From: a virus
Length of the DNA: 24,218 bases
IMG/VR virus record: IMGVR_UViG_3300025701_001509
Location: 1 to 24,218 of that record
Direction: 5' to 3' (one strand)
Shown here: one piece after another, positions 109-10,868 of the stretch
How positions within the stretch are numbered: position 1 is the stretch's first letter
Layout of the letters: the number at the start of each line of letters is the position of its first letter
The notes under the pieces: model-generated
What the model was told of the DNA's origin: nothing
The model's database searches: none
The model's input: only the letters and a program-made list of their open reading frames with translations
Program-made: the position numbers and the translations under genes

Positions 109-114
109 CACTTG

Positions 115-162
115 CTAAGCGCCAAACCACTCGTCATATTCTTCGTCTGTGTATGGCCACAT
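115..162 (-). CDS. Micro-ORF, 15 residues (MWPYTDEEYDEWFGA)
   Basis: This open frame encodes a 15-residue acidic, aromatic peptide, MWPYTDEEYDEWFGA. It starts four bases after the stop of the 73-residue gene and has a good AAAGGA ribosome binding site eight bases before the ATG. The stop is followed by the late-promoter-like box and the terminator, so the ORF is the last one on its transcript. Position and binding site favour real translation; the length gives no statistical support. The peptide has two Trp, two Tyr and five acidic residues, too short to fold alone, so a role as a binding peptide would be a guess. Function unknown. Confidence 0.4.
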   Translation of the reverse strand: MWPYTDEEYDEWFGA

Positions 163-166
163 AGCT

Positions 167-388
167 TTAGTCCTTTTTATTGTCTATAATACGCCGGACA
201 ATATCGTGATGCGATACATTTTTAAAATCATTAGTATGATCTTTTAAATATGTCGCAGTTTCCCACGCCGCTTGCATGCGCCGTGCTTCCATGAGGCTAT
301 TTAAAAAGCCACCAAAGAAATTAATTACCGGCATTACCATTTTCTTCAGTGAGAAAGTGGGTCTCCGGAACGCTACTTGTGTTTTCAT
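167..388 (-). CDS. Small hypothetical protein, 73 residues
   Basis: I do not recognise this protein. It has a basic N-terminus (about residues 1-17), a short hydrophobic stretch MPVINFFGGFLNSL near residues 19-32, then a helical, charged C-terminal half ending DNKKD. The hydrophobic stretch could be a membrane-associating helix but is too short for a clear transmembrane segment. The ATG at 388 has a GAGG site eight bases upstream but makes the gene overlap the 3' end of hsp20 by 68 bases. Downstream ATGs at codons 17 and 19 would cut the overlap to about 14-20 bases but have poorer binding sites. It lies between the chaperone gene and the 15-residue micro-ORF on one transcript. Confidence 0.6.
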   Translation of the reverse strand: MKTQVAFRRPTFSLKKMVMPVINFFGGFLNSLMEARRMQAAWETATYLKDHTNDFKNVSHHDIVRRIIDNKKD

Positions 389-824
389 TTGAGTTTCCTC
401 GTAAGGTTGAATTGATTTCGATTTTACGAGGACGCATTTCTTCTGGGACGACTACTTCTAAATAAATAGCAAGAATACCGTCTACTAGATCTGCTCCATT
501 TACTTGAACATATTCAGACATCCGAAAGGTTTTTTCGAACTTCTTAGTAGAAATACTTTTGTGAATGTATTCCCTACCACGATTTTCATGGTTACCTCTT
601 ACCTTCAATGTTCTATCTTTCACGTCAATTTCTAACTCATTGAGGTGGAAACCTGCAACAGCTAATTCAATTGTATATCTAGTATCGTCTTCTTTTACGA
701 TATTATGTGGAGGATAGTTATCTTTTGAATGTCTAGCCACTCGGTCAAGCTCATCAAATAAATGATCGAACCCAACAAACGCTGAACGTGGAAAGAGAGT
801 ATGTACACCTTGTGTATTAGTCAT
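321..824 (-). CDS. hsp20: Small heat shock protein, Hsp20/alpha-crystallin family (IbpA-like)
   Basis: This 167-residue protein is an ATP-independent holdase chaperone that would bind unfolding proteins in the host cytoplasm. The N-terminal arm contains FVGFDHLFDELDRVAR, typical of bacterial IbpA-type proteins. The alpha-crystallin domain runs from about residue 38 to 130, with YTIELAVAGFHLNELEIDVKD near its start and GILAIYLEVVVPEE near its end. A C-terminal I-x-I anchor (IEI, residues 135-137) is followed by a 30-residue polar tail. I chose ATG 824 because AGGAGG lies just upstream; an in-frame extension to 881 has no such site. Hsp20 genes are common in marine T4-like phages and have been suggested to support capsid assembly or host proteostasis. 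The 3' end overlaps the next gene. Confidence 0.93.
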   Translation of the reverse strand: MTNTQGVHTLFPRSAFVGFDHLFDELDRVARHSKDNYPPHNIVKEDDTRYTIELAVAGFHLNELEIDVKDRTLKVRGNHENRGREYIHKSISTKKFEKTFRMSEYVQVNGADLVDGILAIYLEVVVPEEMRPRKIEINSTLRGNSNENTSSVPETHFLTEENGNAGN

Positions 825-863
825 TATTGACCTCCTATTTAAAGCAAGGTTATGTTTTAAGAC

Positions 864-878
864 CGGCGCTATTCGCCG
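864..878 (-). other. GC-rich hairpin in the hsp20 leader
   Basis: CGGCG and CGCCG flank a five-base loop in the 90-base gap between peroxiredoxin and hsp20. No T-run follows on the minus strand, so it is not a standard terminator. A TATAAT box lies just upstream at 887-892 with no recognisable -35 element. The two may form a weak promoter plus structured 5' leader for hsp20, or a processing site. Unproven. Confidence 0.3.
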
Positions 879-914
879 CATCCGTTATTATATATACGAG
901 AATCTTATGAGATT

Positions 915-1448
915 TTAATTAGATTCTAAATATTGTACTAAGTTTTCTGGTTTGGTTTCACCATATGGATCTGTATCTTCACCGTCGTTATTGATACCTG
1001 GCTCTTGCCACCATTTTTCAATAACACCATCGTTGAATACACACATATAGCGCCATGATCTGTTGCCAAATCCTAAATGGTTTTTACCAATAAGCATGCC
1101 CATGAATCGAGTAAAGTTACCAGATCCATCAGGAATTACTTTTACGTTCTGAATATTCTGAGCTTTAGCCCATGCGTTCATAACAAAAGCATCATTGACA
1201 GAAATGCAATACACTTCGTCAATACCTAAACTACGAATTTTATCATAGTTCTCTTCAAAACCTGGAAGCTGATACGTAGAACATGTTGGTGTAAATGCTC
1301 CAGGTAAACTAAAGATTGCTACTCTTTTTCCTTTTAAGAGAGAATCGCTTGTTACATCTTCCCAGCGATATGGGTTAGGTCCTTCTATACTTTCATCACG
1401 AACACGAGTTTTAAACACCACGCAGGGTGCTTTAAAGCCTTCAATCAT
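915..1448 (-). CDS. Peroxiredoxin, Prx5/type II family (AhpC-TSA/redoxin fold)
   Basis: This 177-residue thiol peroxidase would reduce hydrogen peroxide or organic peroxides with thioredoxin or glutaredoxin as donor. The active-site motif PGAFTPTCS contains the peroxidatic Cys56 with Pro49, Thr53 and Thr55. Cys81 lies exactly 25 residues later, the spacing of the resolving cysteine in plant type II peroxiredoxins. Arg114, before FMGM, is a likely catalytic arginine, and LGFGNRSWRY is typical of the family. The gene appears full length and intact. It starts one base after regA ends and so probably shares the replication-operon transcript, with hsp20 after it. A role protecting replication or host metabolism from oxidative stress is inference. 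It is not part of the T4 core. Confidence 0.93.
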   Translation of the reverse strand: MIEGFKAPCVVFKTRVRDESIEGPNPYRWEDVTSDSLLKGKRVAIFSLPGAFTPTCSTYQLPGFEENYDKIRSLGIDEVYCISVNDAFVMNAWAKAQNIQNVKVIPDGSGNFTRFMGMLIGKNHLGFGNRSWRYMCVFNDGVIEKWWQEPGINNDGEDTDPYGETKPENLVQYLESN

Positions 1449-1449
1449 T

Positions 1450-1860
1450 TTACTTATTACCTATATTATATTTTGGACATAATTCCCAGTTGTTTTTATC
1501 CTTAAACGGGATAATTTTAATCTGACGAAGAGGGGCAACTGGTTGAGCTTGTGCCTTATCGTCAATTGTAATAAGACCCCAATCACTCATAAGAGTTGCG
1601 ATCGTATTACGTCTAGCAATATCATTTTCTTCTAAGTTGGATTTTTTACCATCAAGGAGAAATAACTCCTTAAAATGAACGATAAAATATCTACCTTGCT
1701 TATGTAGAATATGACAAGATTGAAATAGTTTATTTTCTTTTCTAGAAGCCACACCGATTCGAGTAAGTGTTTCACGCACTTTTAAGAAATCATCGGGCTC
1801 GTTGAGGGTAACCTCTAGCATATGGCCAGGGTTCCAATCAATTAAATTATTTTCTTCCAC
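1450..1860 (-). CDS. regA: RegA translational repressor of early mRNAs
   Basis: RegA binds the ribosome-binding regions of phage early mRNAs and shuts off their translation, including its own. The T4 protein has 122 residues; this frame has 136. Family motifs are clear by eye: DFLKVRETLTRIGVA, QSCHILHKQGRYFIVHFKEL, a DWGLI segment, and the C-terminal CPKYNIGNK, close to the T4 end. The frame opens with a GTG at 1860 overlapping the end of gene 62 by 14 bases. The T4 start aligns instead with Met14 (ATG at 1821), so the first 13 residues, including DWNPGH, are either an extension or untranslated. Neither start has a strong binding site. It follows 62 as in T4. Confidence 0.93.
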   Translation of the reverse strand: MEENNLIDWNPGHMLEVTLNEPDDFLKVRETLTRIGVASRKENKLFQSCHILHKQGRYFIVHFKELFLLDGKKSNLEENDIARRNTIATLMSDWGLITIDDKAQAQPVAPLRQIKIIPFKDKNNWELCPKYNIGNK

Positions 1861-2230
1861 CTTTATAAACCTTTGTTTTTAAGTTTGTTATTTGGTCTGG
1901 CGATAGAAGAGATAGTACTTGGCGGGCTTTTTCGTTGCTATAACCATAATACTGTTTAATTACTTCCACGTCATCGATATTATGGGCTTTCACCCATTTA
2001 GAAAATCTTTTTTTCTTCCTAATCATATTTATAAGAAAGTCGTTTTTAAGAAGATTATCGATTTGGTGGTAGCGATTCATCTCGTTAGCAAACAAGACAG
2101 TGTCATGGAAATAAGATAACCCACGGTTAACCATAAACCCATTATATTCTTTTTCGCTGATGTCATCAACTATTAGCTGTTCTTTAGTATAGTTGATAGC
2201 ATTAAGGTAATCAAACGGAGATTTCGACAT
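1847..2230 (-). CDS. 62: Clamp loader small subunit gp62
   Basis: gp62 is the single small subunit that completes the gp44 tetramer to form the ATP-driven loader of the gp45 clamp. I call it mainly from position between gene 44 and regA, supported by weak T4-like features: a helical, basic protein with FMVNRGLSYF and KKKRFSKWVKAHN, resembling FMVENALSQF and GKRYGKWAK in T4. At 127 residues it is clearly shorter than T4 gp62 (187). The ATG overlaps the end of gene 44 by 20 bases, with GGAG ten bases before it, so the two are probably translationally coupled. Confidence 0.8.
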   Translation of the reverse strand: MSKSPFDYLNAINYTKEQLIVDDISEKEYNGFMVNRGLSYFHDTVLFANEMNRYHQIDNLLKNDFLINMIRKKKRFSKWVKAHNIDDVEVIKQYYGYSNEKARQVLSLLSPDQITNLKTKVYKGGRK

Positions 2231-3140
2231 TGGCCATAATCTCCGTCATACACGCAACTACGTTTAGTTCATGATCAGCAACAAAAGCTTGTTTATATTG
2301 ATAATCTGCTAGAATAAGAACTAATTGCGGAATTGAGTGTGGTTGAATATTAGAATTCATACGATCATAAATTGCTCTAAAGATAGCAGACGCATCAGTA
2401 TCAATATTATTTGCTACCCACGTACGCATTCCTTTAAAGTTTTTATCTTTTAGTTGCTTAAACAACTCATCGTAATTATCTGCACGAGCAACAGAATGAG
2501 TAATACCAGTTAAAGACTGGCGTTGTAACTCATTTAGAATACGACGTAAATCTGGTGCAAACTTCATAATAATTTCTGCAACAGCTTTTTGTTCGTATTC
2601 AACACCCTCGGTTTTGAGGATACCTTCTACGCGTTTCATAAACTCCATAGCAATATTTGGTAATGCTTTTTTAGAAATATTAAATTCATATACACCACAA
2701 CGAGAGTGCAATGGCTCAATAATTCTATTTTTGAAGTTACACGTAAGGATAAACCTGCAGTTATTGGCAAACTCTTCAATAAAACCACGAAGAGCCGGTT
2801 GTGTTGACTGCGGGTTCAAGTAATCTGCCTCATCAAGGATCACAACCTTATAACCACCTTGTAGTGAGACAGATGACGCGAACTGCTTGATCTTGCCACG
2901 GAGGGTTTCAATATTACCTTCCTCAGATCCATTAATTAAGATCCAGTCGAGGCCAAGTTCATTACAAAGAGCTTTGGCCACCGTGGTCTTACCAAGACCT
3001 GCTGTACCAGTAAACAGCATATTGGGCAGTTCGCCAGATTCAACAATTTTAGTAAAAGTGTTTTTTAAATCTTCGGTAAGTACACAATCAGAAATAGTTT
3101 TTGGGCGATACTTTTCTACCCATAAGAAATCATTAGACAT
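2211..3140 (-). CDS. 44: Clamp loader large subunit gp44 (AAA+ ATPase)
   Basis: This 309-residue AAA+ protein (T4: 319) forms the tetrameric motor that opens and loads the sliding clamp onto primer-template junctions. Visible motifs are Walker A GTAGLGKT at residues 45-52, Walker B ILDEAD at 101-106, sensor 1 ILTCNF at about 131-136, and the arginine-finger SRC motif at 146-148. The N-terminus LWVEKYRPKTISDCV is the standard clamp-loader opening. The ATG has GGAGT seven bases upstream. A hairpin terminator lies just before the gene, so gp44 may be made from read-through of clamp-gene transcripts or from a local promoter I cannot identify. Confidence 0.97.
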   Translation of the reverse strand: MSNDFLWVEKYRPKTISDCVLTEDLKNTFTKIVESGELPNMLFTGTAGLGKTTVAKALCNELGLDWILINGSEEGNIETLRGKIKQFASSVSLQGGYKVVILDEADYLNPQSTQPALRGFIEEFANNCRFILTCNFKNRIIEPLHSRCGVYEFNISKKALPNIAMEFMKRVEGILKTEGVEYEQKAVAEIIMKFAPDLRRILNELQRQSLTGITHSVARADNYDELFKQLKDKNFKGMRTWVANNIDTDASAIFRAIYDRMNSNIQPHSIPQLVLILADYQYKQAFVADHELNVVACMTEIMANVEISV

Positions 3141-3448: not shown

Positions 3449-4126
3449 TTATACTCCAAATGTTGAGGTTTTTTCAAGTGCGATCCAGTATTTTACTGGA
3501 GTTGATTTATTACTAAACTCTGAGATGAGCTTAGAAGAAATCTTAACGTCATAATCTCCGGGAAGAATTTTAAGATTGCTAATGCTAAGAATAAAATTAA
3601 ATGCTGCGCCTTCTGTATAGTTGCCATCAATATCAATTGAAAATACATTAGACGTAGTATTTTTCGAGTCAACCACAGAGAGATTAATTACACCATCACT
3701 TGGTGTGATTGATACTTCTCCATGACCTAGAGCAGATGCCGCACGTTTTACTTTATTTAATGTGTCATTATCTAAAGTAAATGAAACTTCCGCTTCAGGC
3801 ATCTTAATATCTTTTTGCGGAGTAGTCAAAGTTTCTTCAGCTGAGAAAAAGTATTTGACTCGAGATCTACCAGAAGAATCAGAAATGCGAACATGTCCTT
3901 CATCAAACTGCAGATTAGGTGCATCAACAAGCCCAAGCACGCTGATAAATTCATTTAGATCATAGATACCAAAATCTTTTGAAAAGCTTTCGGTAACTTC
4001 GGCTGAAGCTAAAACATTACGAGCTTCAGAGATAGTTTTGATTGTAGTGCCTTCACGAATCAAAATATTCTGGTTAATACCAGAAAAGTTTTTTAATACC
4101 GATAGGGTGTTTTCACTTAGTTCCAT
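3449..4126 (-). CDS. 45: Sliding clamp gp45
   Basis: gp45 is the trimeric DNA polymerase processivity clamp and, in T4-like phages, the mobile activator of late transcription together with gp55 and gp33. The protein has 225 residues (T4: 228). The N-terminus MELSENTLSVLKNFSGINQN and the segments EFISVLGLVDAPNL and YFFSAEETL fit the clamp family. ATG 4126 is chosen over an upstream in-frame GTG at 4138 because GGAGT precedes it at normal spacing and the length then matches T4. A near-consensus sigma70 promoter stands just upstream, so the clamp gene can be transcribed early, independently of gene 46. Confidence 0.95.
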   Translation of the reverse strand: MELSENTLSVLKNFSGINQNILIREGTTIKTISEARNVLASAEVTESFSKDFGIYDLNEFISVLGLVDAPNLQFDEGHVRISDSSGRSRVKYFFSAEETLTTPQKDIKMPEAEVSFTLDNDTLNKVKRAASALGHGEVSITPSDGVINLSVVDSKNTTSNVFSIDIDGNYTEGAAFNFILSISNLKILPGDYDVKISSKLISEFSNKSTPVKYWIALEKTSTFGV

Positions 4127-4154
4127 TATATACTCCACGTTTCAATATACTTAT

Positions 4155-4188: not shown

Positions 4189-5907
4189 TTATGCATTCAT
4201 TTTACTAAAATTTTTGTCTTTTATGAATTCAATCTTAGATTTGAATTTACCATCTAAGATATCTCCTTTATGTGATATCACAAATACGTTTGTATCTTCT
4301 GTTAATGTAGATAAAATCTTAAGGAGATTTTCTACTCCATCTACATCAAGTGAAGAATCAAATGTCTCATCAAGAATCAAAAGATTTGTTGAGATTGAAT
4401 TCTTCATCTTAGCAATTTGTCTCCACGTAAAGAGTAAAGCCAAATCGATTCTTTGTTTCTCACCTTCAGAGAAGGAAGCATAAGTAAACTCATCACGATG
4501 ACGTGATCGAATAGTTTCTTGAAATGATTCGTCCAAATCAAAATGAACGAAGAAATCAAGCACTTGTAAATATTGATTAACGAGATTATTTATAACTGGT
4601 AAATACTGTTTTATAATCTTTGTCTTGATACCAGTATCTTTTAGCATTTCACCAATTACTTCGTTGTACGATCTTTGCTCACTGAGAAATAACCTTTGCT
4701 CCTGATAGGTATCTTTTTGATCTGATAAGTTCTGAAGAGTCTCCGTTGCTTCTGCCAGATCTCCTCCTCCACCTTCGATTTTGGTAAGATCACTTCTTTT
4801 AACTGATAGTCCAGACGAAATCTGCCCAAGTCTCTTATTGTTAGTGAGTAATAAATGCTGTTTGTTCGCGATAGCCTGGTGTACCTTATTCGCGACGTTA
4901 AGATCTGATTCAGTTTGACCTGATTCTTGAGAGATAGTGTTAAGTTTTGAACTAATGGTTTTTGCAGAAGAAGTTGCATCGGCGATTTTTGACGAGCGTA
5001 ATTCGCTACCAATATCTTGGGAACAAGTTGGGCACGTGGTGTTATCTTCGAAGAACTTCGTTTCTTTGACGAGCTTTTTAATTTCTGATTTGAGCTCATG
5101 TTCATGCTCCTTTAATGAAGACTGTTTTGAATTTAATTTAGCTAAAGTCTCTGAAACCTTTTGCGTATTGGATTCAATGAACGTCCCGAGCTCAGAGTTT
5201 TCGTTCGTGAGTCTTGTCTGTTCTTCCTCAAGTTCAATAATTTCCTCTTTAATCTTATCCGCGTATTCTTTATTAAGCGCTTTAACATCTTTGATATACT
5301 TCTTTTGTGTATCAACTTTATTAACAATGAGATCTAATTGATAAGAAATTTCGTTTGTTTTATCTTTTAAGATGCCATTCTTTTCACGCAGTAATTGATT
5401 CATTTTAGAGAATACGTTAATATCCAACAAGTCTTCAATTACTTCACGTCTATGGCCACCAGGTAGTTGCATAAAGGGAATGAATGAGGAAGAACCCAAT
5501 ACAACTACCTGATGGAACGTTTTATGCGTTAACTTAAGAATATTTTGTTCTATGATTTTTTGATATTCTTTAGAATGAGATGCTTGATCAATCATTGATC
5601 CATTCTGCCAAATCTCAAAAATTCCTGGTTTAATACCACGCACAATTTTATATTCTACATTGCCAACAGCAAATTCTACTTCTACAACACAATCTTTCTT
5701 ATTGATTGAGTTAACCAATTGTGGTTTATTAATATTACGGTGTGGTTTACCAAATAACGCAAATGAAATAGCATCTAGCATTGTTGATTTGCCAGAACCA
5801 TTATGGCCAATAATCAATGTTGATTGGCTTTTATTCAAATGGATTTCAGTAAACTTATTACCAGTAGATAAAAAGTTTTTATATTTTATAGATTTAAATA
5901 ATAGCAT
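4189..5907 (-). CDS. 46: Recombination endonuclease subunit gp46 (Rad50-like)
   Basis: gp46 is the SMC-like ATPase partner of gp47; the complex resects DNA ends for recombination-dependent replication and helps degrade host DNA. The 572-residue protein (T4: 560) has Walker A GHNGSGKS at 34-41, a long coiled coil from about 165 to 415 broken by the zinc-hook motif CPTC at 292-295, the ABC signature SFSEGEKQRIDLA at about 478-490, Walker B LLILDE at 509-514, and an ISHK switch near the end. The start MLLFKSIKYKNFLSTGN is typical. It begins five bases after gene 47 ends, so the two subunits are co-expressed. Confidence 0.97.
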   Translation of the reverse strand: MLLFKSIKYKNFLSTGNKFTEIHLNKSQSTLIIGHNGSGKSTMLDAISFALFGKPHRNINKPQLVNSINKKDCVVEVEFAVGNVEYKIVRGIKPGIFEIWQNGSMIDQASHSKEYQKIIEQNILKLTHKTFHQVVVLGSSSFIPFMQLPGGHRREVIEDLLDINVFSKMNQLLREKNGILKDKTNEISYQLDLIVNKVDTQKKYIKDVKALNKEYADKIKEEIIELEEEQTRLTNENSELGTFIESNTQKVSETLAKLNSKQSSLKEHEHELKSEIKKLVKETKFFEDNTTCPTCSQDIGSELRSSKIADATSSAKTISSKLNTISQESGQTESDLNVANKVHQAIANKQHLLLTNNKRLGQISSGLSVKRSDLTKIEGGGGDLAEATETLQNLSDQKDTYQEQRLFLSEQRSYNEVIGEMLKDTGIKTKIIKQYLPVINNLVNQYLQVLDFFVHFDLDESFQETIRSRHRDEFTYASFSEGEKQRIDLALLFTWRQIAKMKNSISTNLLILDETFDSSLDVDGVENLLKILSTLTEDTNVFVISHKGDILDGKFKSKIEFIKDKNFSKMNA

Positions 5908-5912
5908 TCAAC

Positions 5913-6974
5913 TCACACTACTTCGAGGGATTGCGCCTCGGTCATAAGATCTGTCATTTCATTTTTAATACGATCTTTATTTAGATCCGTATCAACATTA
6001 TCAATATATGCACTTAAGAGTTGTGAAGTATCTTCAACAGATATACCATCATCTGATACATTTTCACCAATAAACTCCTGAAAATTCTCAGCAATTTTAA
6101 GTTCATAGATATCTTGATTCGAAATCTTATCAATAAATCGGTCAAAAGTAAATGATTCAGACTTATTTACTACAATAACTTTTACAAATTTGTTGGTAAG
6201 ATCTTTTATCTTATAGTTATTATAATCTATTTCTTTGTCATTGTACACAATTTTTTCGTACAAAGTGTGCGGATTTCTCACGGGTGTAAGTTCACGAGTT
6301 TTTGTATCTAATACGTGAAAATACTTAGGATCTCCACAATCAGACCAAGTCAATTCCATTTGACTACCAAGGTATTTAACATTGCCTTGTTCCGATTTAG
6401 TATGGAAATGCCCAGACATAACTAATTCAAATTTTTTGAAAATGGTTGGATCCATTCCACCATTATTAGTAACACCTCTCATCATTTCAAATCCATTTAA
6501 TTCTAGATGAGCACCAATAATTTGAGCATCACATGATTGAATCCAATCAACTGTAGCTTTATAGTTTTCACTAGTAATCCATGGAATTAATCCCAACTTA
6601 AGACCATCATAGTCCATAACAGTTGGCTCCATAATAATATGAACGTTATTCATATAATGCCCAAGAAACTCTTTTAGCGAGTTTAGCTCATTAGTATTTT
6701 TATAATACGTATCATGATTACCAGGAATAATATCCATAGTCATACCATTATCGCGTAATGGATCTAAGAATACTTTACGATTATGATTAACCGCTTTAAC
6801 ATTAATTTGTTTACGGTTATCGTAATAATCACCTAAATGTAGTACATGCGTGATTTTGTTTTCAATACAATATGGAAAAAAAGTATCGGTATAAAATCTA
6901 GTCTGATTTTCTAAAAAAATATCAGAAGAATTCCTGACATCACAGTGTGTGTCATTCAGTATCGCCACTTTCAT
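5913..6974 (-). CDS. 47: Recombination endonuclease subunit gp47 (Mre11-like)
   Basis: gp47 is the metallophosphoesterase nuclease of the gp46/47 complex. The 353-residue protein (T4: 339) carries the full metal-binding set: NDTHCD at 7-12, GDYYD at 48-52, GNHD at 85-88 and GHFH at 188-191. The C-terminal third, helical and acidic, is where Mre11 relatives bind their Rad50 partner. The ATG overlaps the 3' end of the AbrB-like gene by 23 bases, and gene 46 follows after five bases, so the block 55-AbrB-like-47-46 is translated as a tightly coupled unit. Confidence 0.97.
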   Translation of the reverse strand: MKVAILNDTHCDVRNSSDIFLENQTRFYTDTFFPYCIENKITHVLHLGDYYDNRKQINVKAVNHNRKVFLDPLRDNGMTMDIIPGNHDTYYKNTNELNSLKEFLGHYMNNVHIIMEPTVMDYDGLKLGLIPWITSENYKATVDWIQSCDAQIIGAHLELNGFEMMRGVTNNGGMDPTIFKKFELVMSGHFHTKSEQGNVKYLGSQMELTWSDCGDPKYFHVLDTKTRELTPVRNPHTLYEKIVYNDKEIDYNNYKIKDLTNKFVKVIVVNKSESFTFDRFIDKISNQDIYELKIAENFQEFIGENVSDDGISVEDTSQLLSAYIDNVDTDLNKDRIKNEMTDLMTEAQSLEVV

Positions 6975-7167
6975 TAGACAATTTCTCCTTTACTTCCGCA
7001 ACATTATCAATTTTTCTTAAGACAACATAACCATCAAAAATATCAAATGATAACATATCGCCTTCTTTAGCATCAATTTGTTCTAGGATTTCATCGGGAA
7101 TAGGGAGGATAAGATCTTCACCATCTTCAATAACTGTTGTAGTATAACGCTTTACTAGTTCACTCAT
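6952..7167 (-). CDS. Small AbrB/MazE-like (swapped-hairpin) protein, 71 residues
   Basis: This small protein reads like an AbrB/SpoVT-type swapped-hairpin domain: TVIEDGEDLILPIPDEILEQ, then DAKEGDMLSFDIFDGYVVLRKI, matching the usual pattern of strand, L-P-x-E/D, helix, x-x-G-D-x-L-x-x-x, strand. Such domains bind DNA as dimers and occur in MazE-type antitoxins and transition-state regulators. No toxin gene lies beside it: its neighbours are the late sigma factor (ATGA overlap at its start) and gp47 (23-base overlap). A regulatory or clamp/polymerase-linked role is possible. The family call is by eye from a short sequence. Confidence 0.6.
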   Translation of the reverse strand: MSELVKRYTTTVIEDGEDLILPIPDEILEQIDAKEGDMLSFDIFDGYVVLRKIDNVAEVKEKLSNESGDTE

Positions 7168-10860: not shown

Positions 10861-10868
10861 TATTTATA
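10861..10868 (-). promoter_or_regulatory. T4-type late promoter TATAAATA
   Basis: On the minus strand this reads TATAAATA, the exact T4 late consensus recognised by gp55. It lies 23 bases before the ATG at 10838, which leaves a leader of about 17 bases with a TTGGAG binding site, and directly after the gp23 terminator. It restarts late transcription for the gp3-position gene and possibly uvsY/uvsW. Confidence 0.75.

Follow-up and report, generated by a model that had tools for sequence, protein, structure and literature searches.

The hybrid Prx5 of Haemophilus influenzae, HI0572, carries a peroxiredoxin domain fused to a glutaredoxin domain. It is the closest solved relative, in both sequence and fold (PDB 1nm3), of the phage-encoded peroxiredoxin (Prx) described here, and has the same PGAFTPTC active site. 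Two further relatives, AOP of Plasmodium falciparum (PfAOP, 1xiy) and Prx3 of Vibrio vulnificus (VvPrx3, 5k1g), are 1-Cys Prx5 enzymes reduced via glutaredoxin and glutathione (PMC5361646, PMC5755580); they differ in being non-phage proteins, with an identity of ~26-35% by structure alignment. Among phages, members with the same active site are catalogued as PHROG 2281 and, in RefSeq, as ‘peroxyredoxin antioxidant’ in T4-like cyanophages and HTVC008M, with 42-62% identity for most isolates. In cyanophages, prx is part of an hli-ferredoxin-prx-hli-psbA region, and in HTVC008M its neighbour is a gene for a putative late promoter transcription factor. No study of a phage peroxiredoxin was found in the open-access literature, and PMC3037559 and PMC2984593, two papers on T4-like cyanophage genomes, do not mention one in their main texts.

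The stretch analysed here (the window) comprises 24,218 nt of the IMG/VR virus record IMGVR_UViG_3300025701_001509. Unlike in the cyanophages and HTVC008M, prx follows regA in this virus, within a run ordered gp45-orf80-gp44-gp62-regA-prx-hsp20 (Table 1). The gene is intact from its ATG start to its TAA stop, and a single A separates the regA TAA from the prx ATG, which confirms what had been read from the sequence alone. The chance expectation for an open frame of 177 codons is ~0.009 per window at this base composition. For hsp20, the ATG at 824 is a better start than the 881 of the ORF list, and an AGGAGG lies upstream of it at 836-831. Elsewhere in the window, a 71-aa protein (6952-7167, minus strand) without a Pfam match at E 1e-3 resembles, by eye, an AbrB/MazE-type DNA-binding protein.

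Table 1 Features of the prx locus and the adjoining replication genes, in window coordinates
Feature	Coordinates	Strand	Description and evidence
gp45 sliding clamp	3449..4138	-	First replication gene in the run; Pfam gp45-slide_C 7.1e-14
gp44 clamp-loader large subunit	2211..3140	-	Pfam AAA 4e-16, Gp44_lid
gp62 clamp-loader small subunit	1847..2230	-	Pfam Phage_clamp_A 4.2e-12
regA translational repressor	1450..1860	-	Directly upstream of prx; Pfam Translat_reg E 8.8e-44
prx	915..1448	-	Prx5-type peroxiredoxin, 177 aa; Cys56 in PGAFTPTC, Arg133; Pfam and PHROG matches
prx-hsp20 intergenic	825..914	-	Weak hairpin, without clear terminator or promoter
hsp20	321..824	-	Downstream of prx; Pfam HSP20 9e-16

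Prx matches PHROG 2281 over most of its length (residues 26-176, E 6.1e-64) and also Pfam Redoxin (E 2e-21). The AlphaFold model (mean pLDDT 84.2, pTM 0.82) has low confidence at the active-site loop (residues 51-60) and at residues 121-130. Its best PDB matches are, in order, the H. influenzae hybrid Prx5, PfAOP, a Burkholderia protein, poplar PrxD and VvPrx3. Sequence comparison gives much the same closest solved relatives, and solved Prx5/type II enzymes are nearest in both. P49, T53, C56 and R133, which make up the PxxxTxxC motif and an arginine that is presumably catalytic by homology, are invariant in 81 metagenomic phage, 12 isolate and ~100 bacterial/SAR11-family rows. Pairwise Nei-Gojobori dN/dS between the window prx and its phage relatives, for pairs with unsaturated dS, is 0.05-0.10 and indicates strong purifying selection. 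The protein thus appears to be a functional Prx5-family peroxiredoxin, as the sequence-only reading held: it belongs to the right family, has the right active-site residues, has long been under purifying selection and is predicted to have peroxidase activity.

A tblastn search (E 1e-3) recovered relatives in 98 phage records, the weakest few of which are distant peroxiredoxins. Almost all belong to T4-like Synechococcus phages, supplemented by Prochlorococcus phage P-TIM40, HTVC008M and C48C1. At least 583 IMG/VR stretches also encode relatives. Because of these many relatives, prx is neither contamination nor new, and a near-identical 97.9-kb contig (see below) likewise rules out a single-genome artefact. 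The suggestion that the gene is an accessory outside the T4 core proved correct, and it is common to many phages. Versions of Prx from phages have been catalogued before and are common among ocean viruses, and this gene is ordinary but for its position and its SAR11-type kinship.

The position was surveyed among the best 80 of the at least 583 IMG/VR relatives. prx stands immediately after regA in L002, L003, L004 and L006, as well as in another lineage comprising L062-L065, whereas L068 and L072 have an hsp20-prx-gp45 arrangement instead. Prx5 beside regA in other phages, for which a search had been suggested, is therefore real in a few loci and rare overall. The isolate records examined showed no case of it. 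Elsewhere among these 80, prx occurs in unrelated contexts: in 12 loci it directly precedes a weak 2OG-Fe oxygenase match with an HxH...WHRPG-type motif, and in 12 it shares an overlap of 1-4 nt with a member of the Mom DNA-modification gene family (PF25680). A gp23 match is present in 2 of the 48 contigs with unrelated prx contexts, many of which are short fragments. In C48C1, HTVC008M and S-SRM01, where both positions were seen, regA is ~20 kb or more from prx.

The same region was approached from the side of regA, using 80 IMG/VR loci listed as RegA matches, 67 of which have at least 700 nt downstream or a prx match. Prx is adjacent in one of the 67, which is the same virus, and in another (L280) a 60%-identical prx follows a JmjC-like gene. 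The known regA-prx junctions of L003, L004 and L006 fall outside these 80 loci, and the counts are not whole-collection frequencies. In 69 of the RegA-match loci listed, regA and the hsp20 match are separated by 52 to 2543 nt, and the commonest cargo between them comes from a JmjC-like cupin family, which has 20 members. In marine T4-like phages, the interval between regA and hsp20 (window 825-1449) is a variable cargo slot. A regA-prx operon conserved across T4-like phages is ruled out by the rarity of the junction and the variable slot content. The general tie to replication proposed from the sequence finds no support on the same grounds, since prx lies elsewhere in most relatives.

Minus-strand matches to TATAAATA are located upstream of structural genes at 10868, 14297 and 18558, inside gp62 (2033-2026) and inside a gp46-like gene (4594), five in total against 3.3 expected. 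gp45 is closely preceded, at 4183-4155, by a sigma-70-like site (11/12), and such sites are no more numerous in the window than in shuffles. Given these counts, the timing of prx expression is read from its place in the operon, which makes early or middle expression plausible; the TATAAATA match inside gp62 could also give late expression. A promoter or terminator belonging to prx itself was considered and rejected, as promoter-like sites do not exceed shuffles and the stretch towards hsp20 has a weak hairpin only.

The 97.9-kb contig IMGVR_UViG_3300025684_000015 equals the window at 99.98-100% over nearly the whole window length. With a gp23 capsid gene and the gp45-gp44-gp62-regA replication run, the virus is T4-like (Kyanoviridae-type). 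The closest sequences to its capsid and RegA come from phage C48C1, Pelagibacter phage HTVC008M, Methylophilales phages and cyanophages, so a heterotrophic proteobacterium is the likely host. The contig encodes a class I ribonucleotide reductase (RNR) large subunit NrdA of 661 aa (4558-6543, minus strand) that adjoins NrdB and carries a C-terminal glutaredoxin domain. The phage glutaredoxin previously put forward as a candidate partner thus exists in NrdA-fused form, and this fusion is a possible phage-encoded reductant for Prx. Thioredoxin, psbA and 2OG-FeII_Oxy_3 were not found on the contig; because it is a fragment, these absences are weak evidence.

The relatedness of the gene was determined with a maximum-likelihood tree of 94 rows, whose bootstrap is not fully settled. 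The window prx groups, with support of 100/99, among metagenomic phage sequences together with four SAR11-family rows and a single contig from a Pirellulales MAG; the cyanophage and alphaproteobacterial groups lie outside this clade. The SAR11-family genes share the WWQEPGINN-like tail and ~62-63% identity with the phage type. They differ in being chromosomal, each placed in an ABC-transporter operon, apparently of the iron type, between a solute-binding protein of the putative iron-transporter type and a permease (L133 1692-6264; L142 1109-5684; L185; L186). In a search of 147 SAR11-family genomes, the majority proved to carry either no Prx or just more distant ones. Descent from an alga or a cyanobacterium is disfavoured: judged by nearest relatives alone, as the tree contained no cyanobacterial or algal Prx, the closest cellular sequences are alphaproteobacterial/SAR11-type, with none from cyanobacteria or algae among them, and psbA is among the genes not found on the 97.9-kb fragment. 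The Pirellulales MAG contig with the phage-clade prx is probably a viral contig binned with a bacterium.

We consider it likely that prx is accessory cargo occupying the variable slot between regA and hsp20 in a T4-like marine virus, apparently not a cyanophage, and that its clade has exchanged with SAR11-family bacteria. It would be transcribed and translated together with regA in early or mid infection. Cys56 would reduce H2O2 to water or organic peroxides to alcohol, and the resulting sulfenate would be resolved by glutathione/glutaredoxin, supplied by the host or by the NrdA-fused domain of the phage, in a 1-Cys cycle that does not need Cys81. The benefit may be a low peroxide level while peroxide-sensitive phage or host enzymes work, for example the phage class I RNR.

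Prx could instead serve mainly to protect certain enzymes that depend on Fe (RNR and 2OG-Fe oxygenases) or to scavenge nitric oxide, rather than to remove peroxide in bulk. The oxygenase match directly after prx in 12 loci of other phages, the JmjC-like gene before it in the regA slot of L280 and the iron-type operon around the SAR11-family genes would fit such a role, and VvPrx3 reacts with nitric oxide and is controlled by IscR (PMC5755580). Evidence from gene neighbourhood is indirect, however, and no 2OG-FeII_Oxy_3 match was found on the virus’s own 97.9-kb contig, so we regard the specialised role as rather unlikely. Also improbable, in our estimate, is a wider scenario in which a prx shared with the SAR11-family iron-type transport operon became mobile cargo of unrelated marine phages, was placed next to functions sensitive to iron or light (replication/RNR, 2OG-Fe oxygenases, photosystem II genes) and protects specific enzymes during infection.

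The bulk peroxide removal that we favour could also proceed through an atypical 2-Cys cycle, in which Cys81 resolves the Cys56 sulfenate within the chain and thioredoxin or glutaredoxin reduces the disulfide. Cys81 had indeed been taken for a type II resolving cysteine. It sits 25 residues after Cys56 and shows no variation across 81 phage rows; of the cellular rows, a single one departs from it, with Val. Against this, Cys73 of VvPrx3, part of a 48/73 pair with the same spacing, is reported to be dispensable, and the enzyme stays active with a GSH/Grx3/GR system (PMC5755580). PfAOP carries a cysteine at this position, yet its PDB entry labels it a 1-Cys peroxiredoxin, and it is reduced via glutathione and glutaredoxin (PMC5361646). 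HI0572 has Val there, and no thioredoxin was found on the fragmentary 97.9-kb contig. Because of these three relatives, the 1-Cys, glutaredoxin/glutathione-dependent cycle appears more likely, Cys81 probably does not act in resolution and the 2-Cys cycle is unlikely. The near-invariance of Cys81 nevertheless leaves room for some role, even a resolving one. Prx has two further cysteines, Cys9 and Cys136, that were absent from the earlier description and vary among phages.

That prx is a neutral passenger or decaying host gene, useless to the phage, would agree with the varying slot content and the lack of prx there in most relatives, but is very improbable in view of the low dN/dS across phages and the invariant active site. 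An antioxidant phage gene so far seen mainly beside cyanophage photosynthesis genes gains a new position behind regA and a link to a SAR11-type, apparently non-photosynthetic host. If the enzyme is active, it would offer a simple way to test if phage replication in ocean bacteria is limited by peroxide. At window positions 113-175 there is a short difference from the 97.9-kb contig, and ~63 bases are missing there in the near-identical contig L002.
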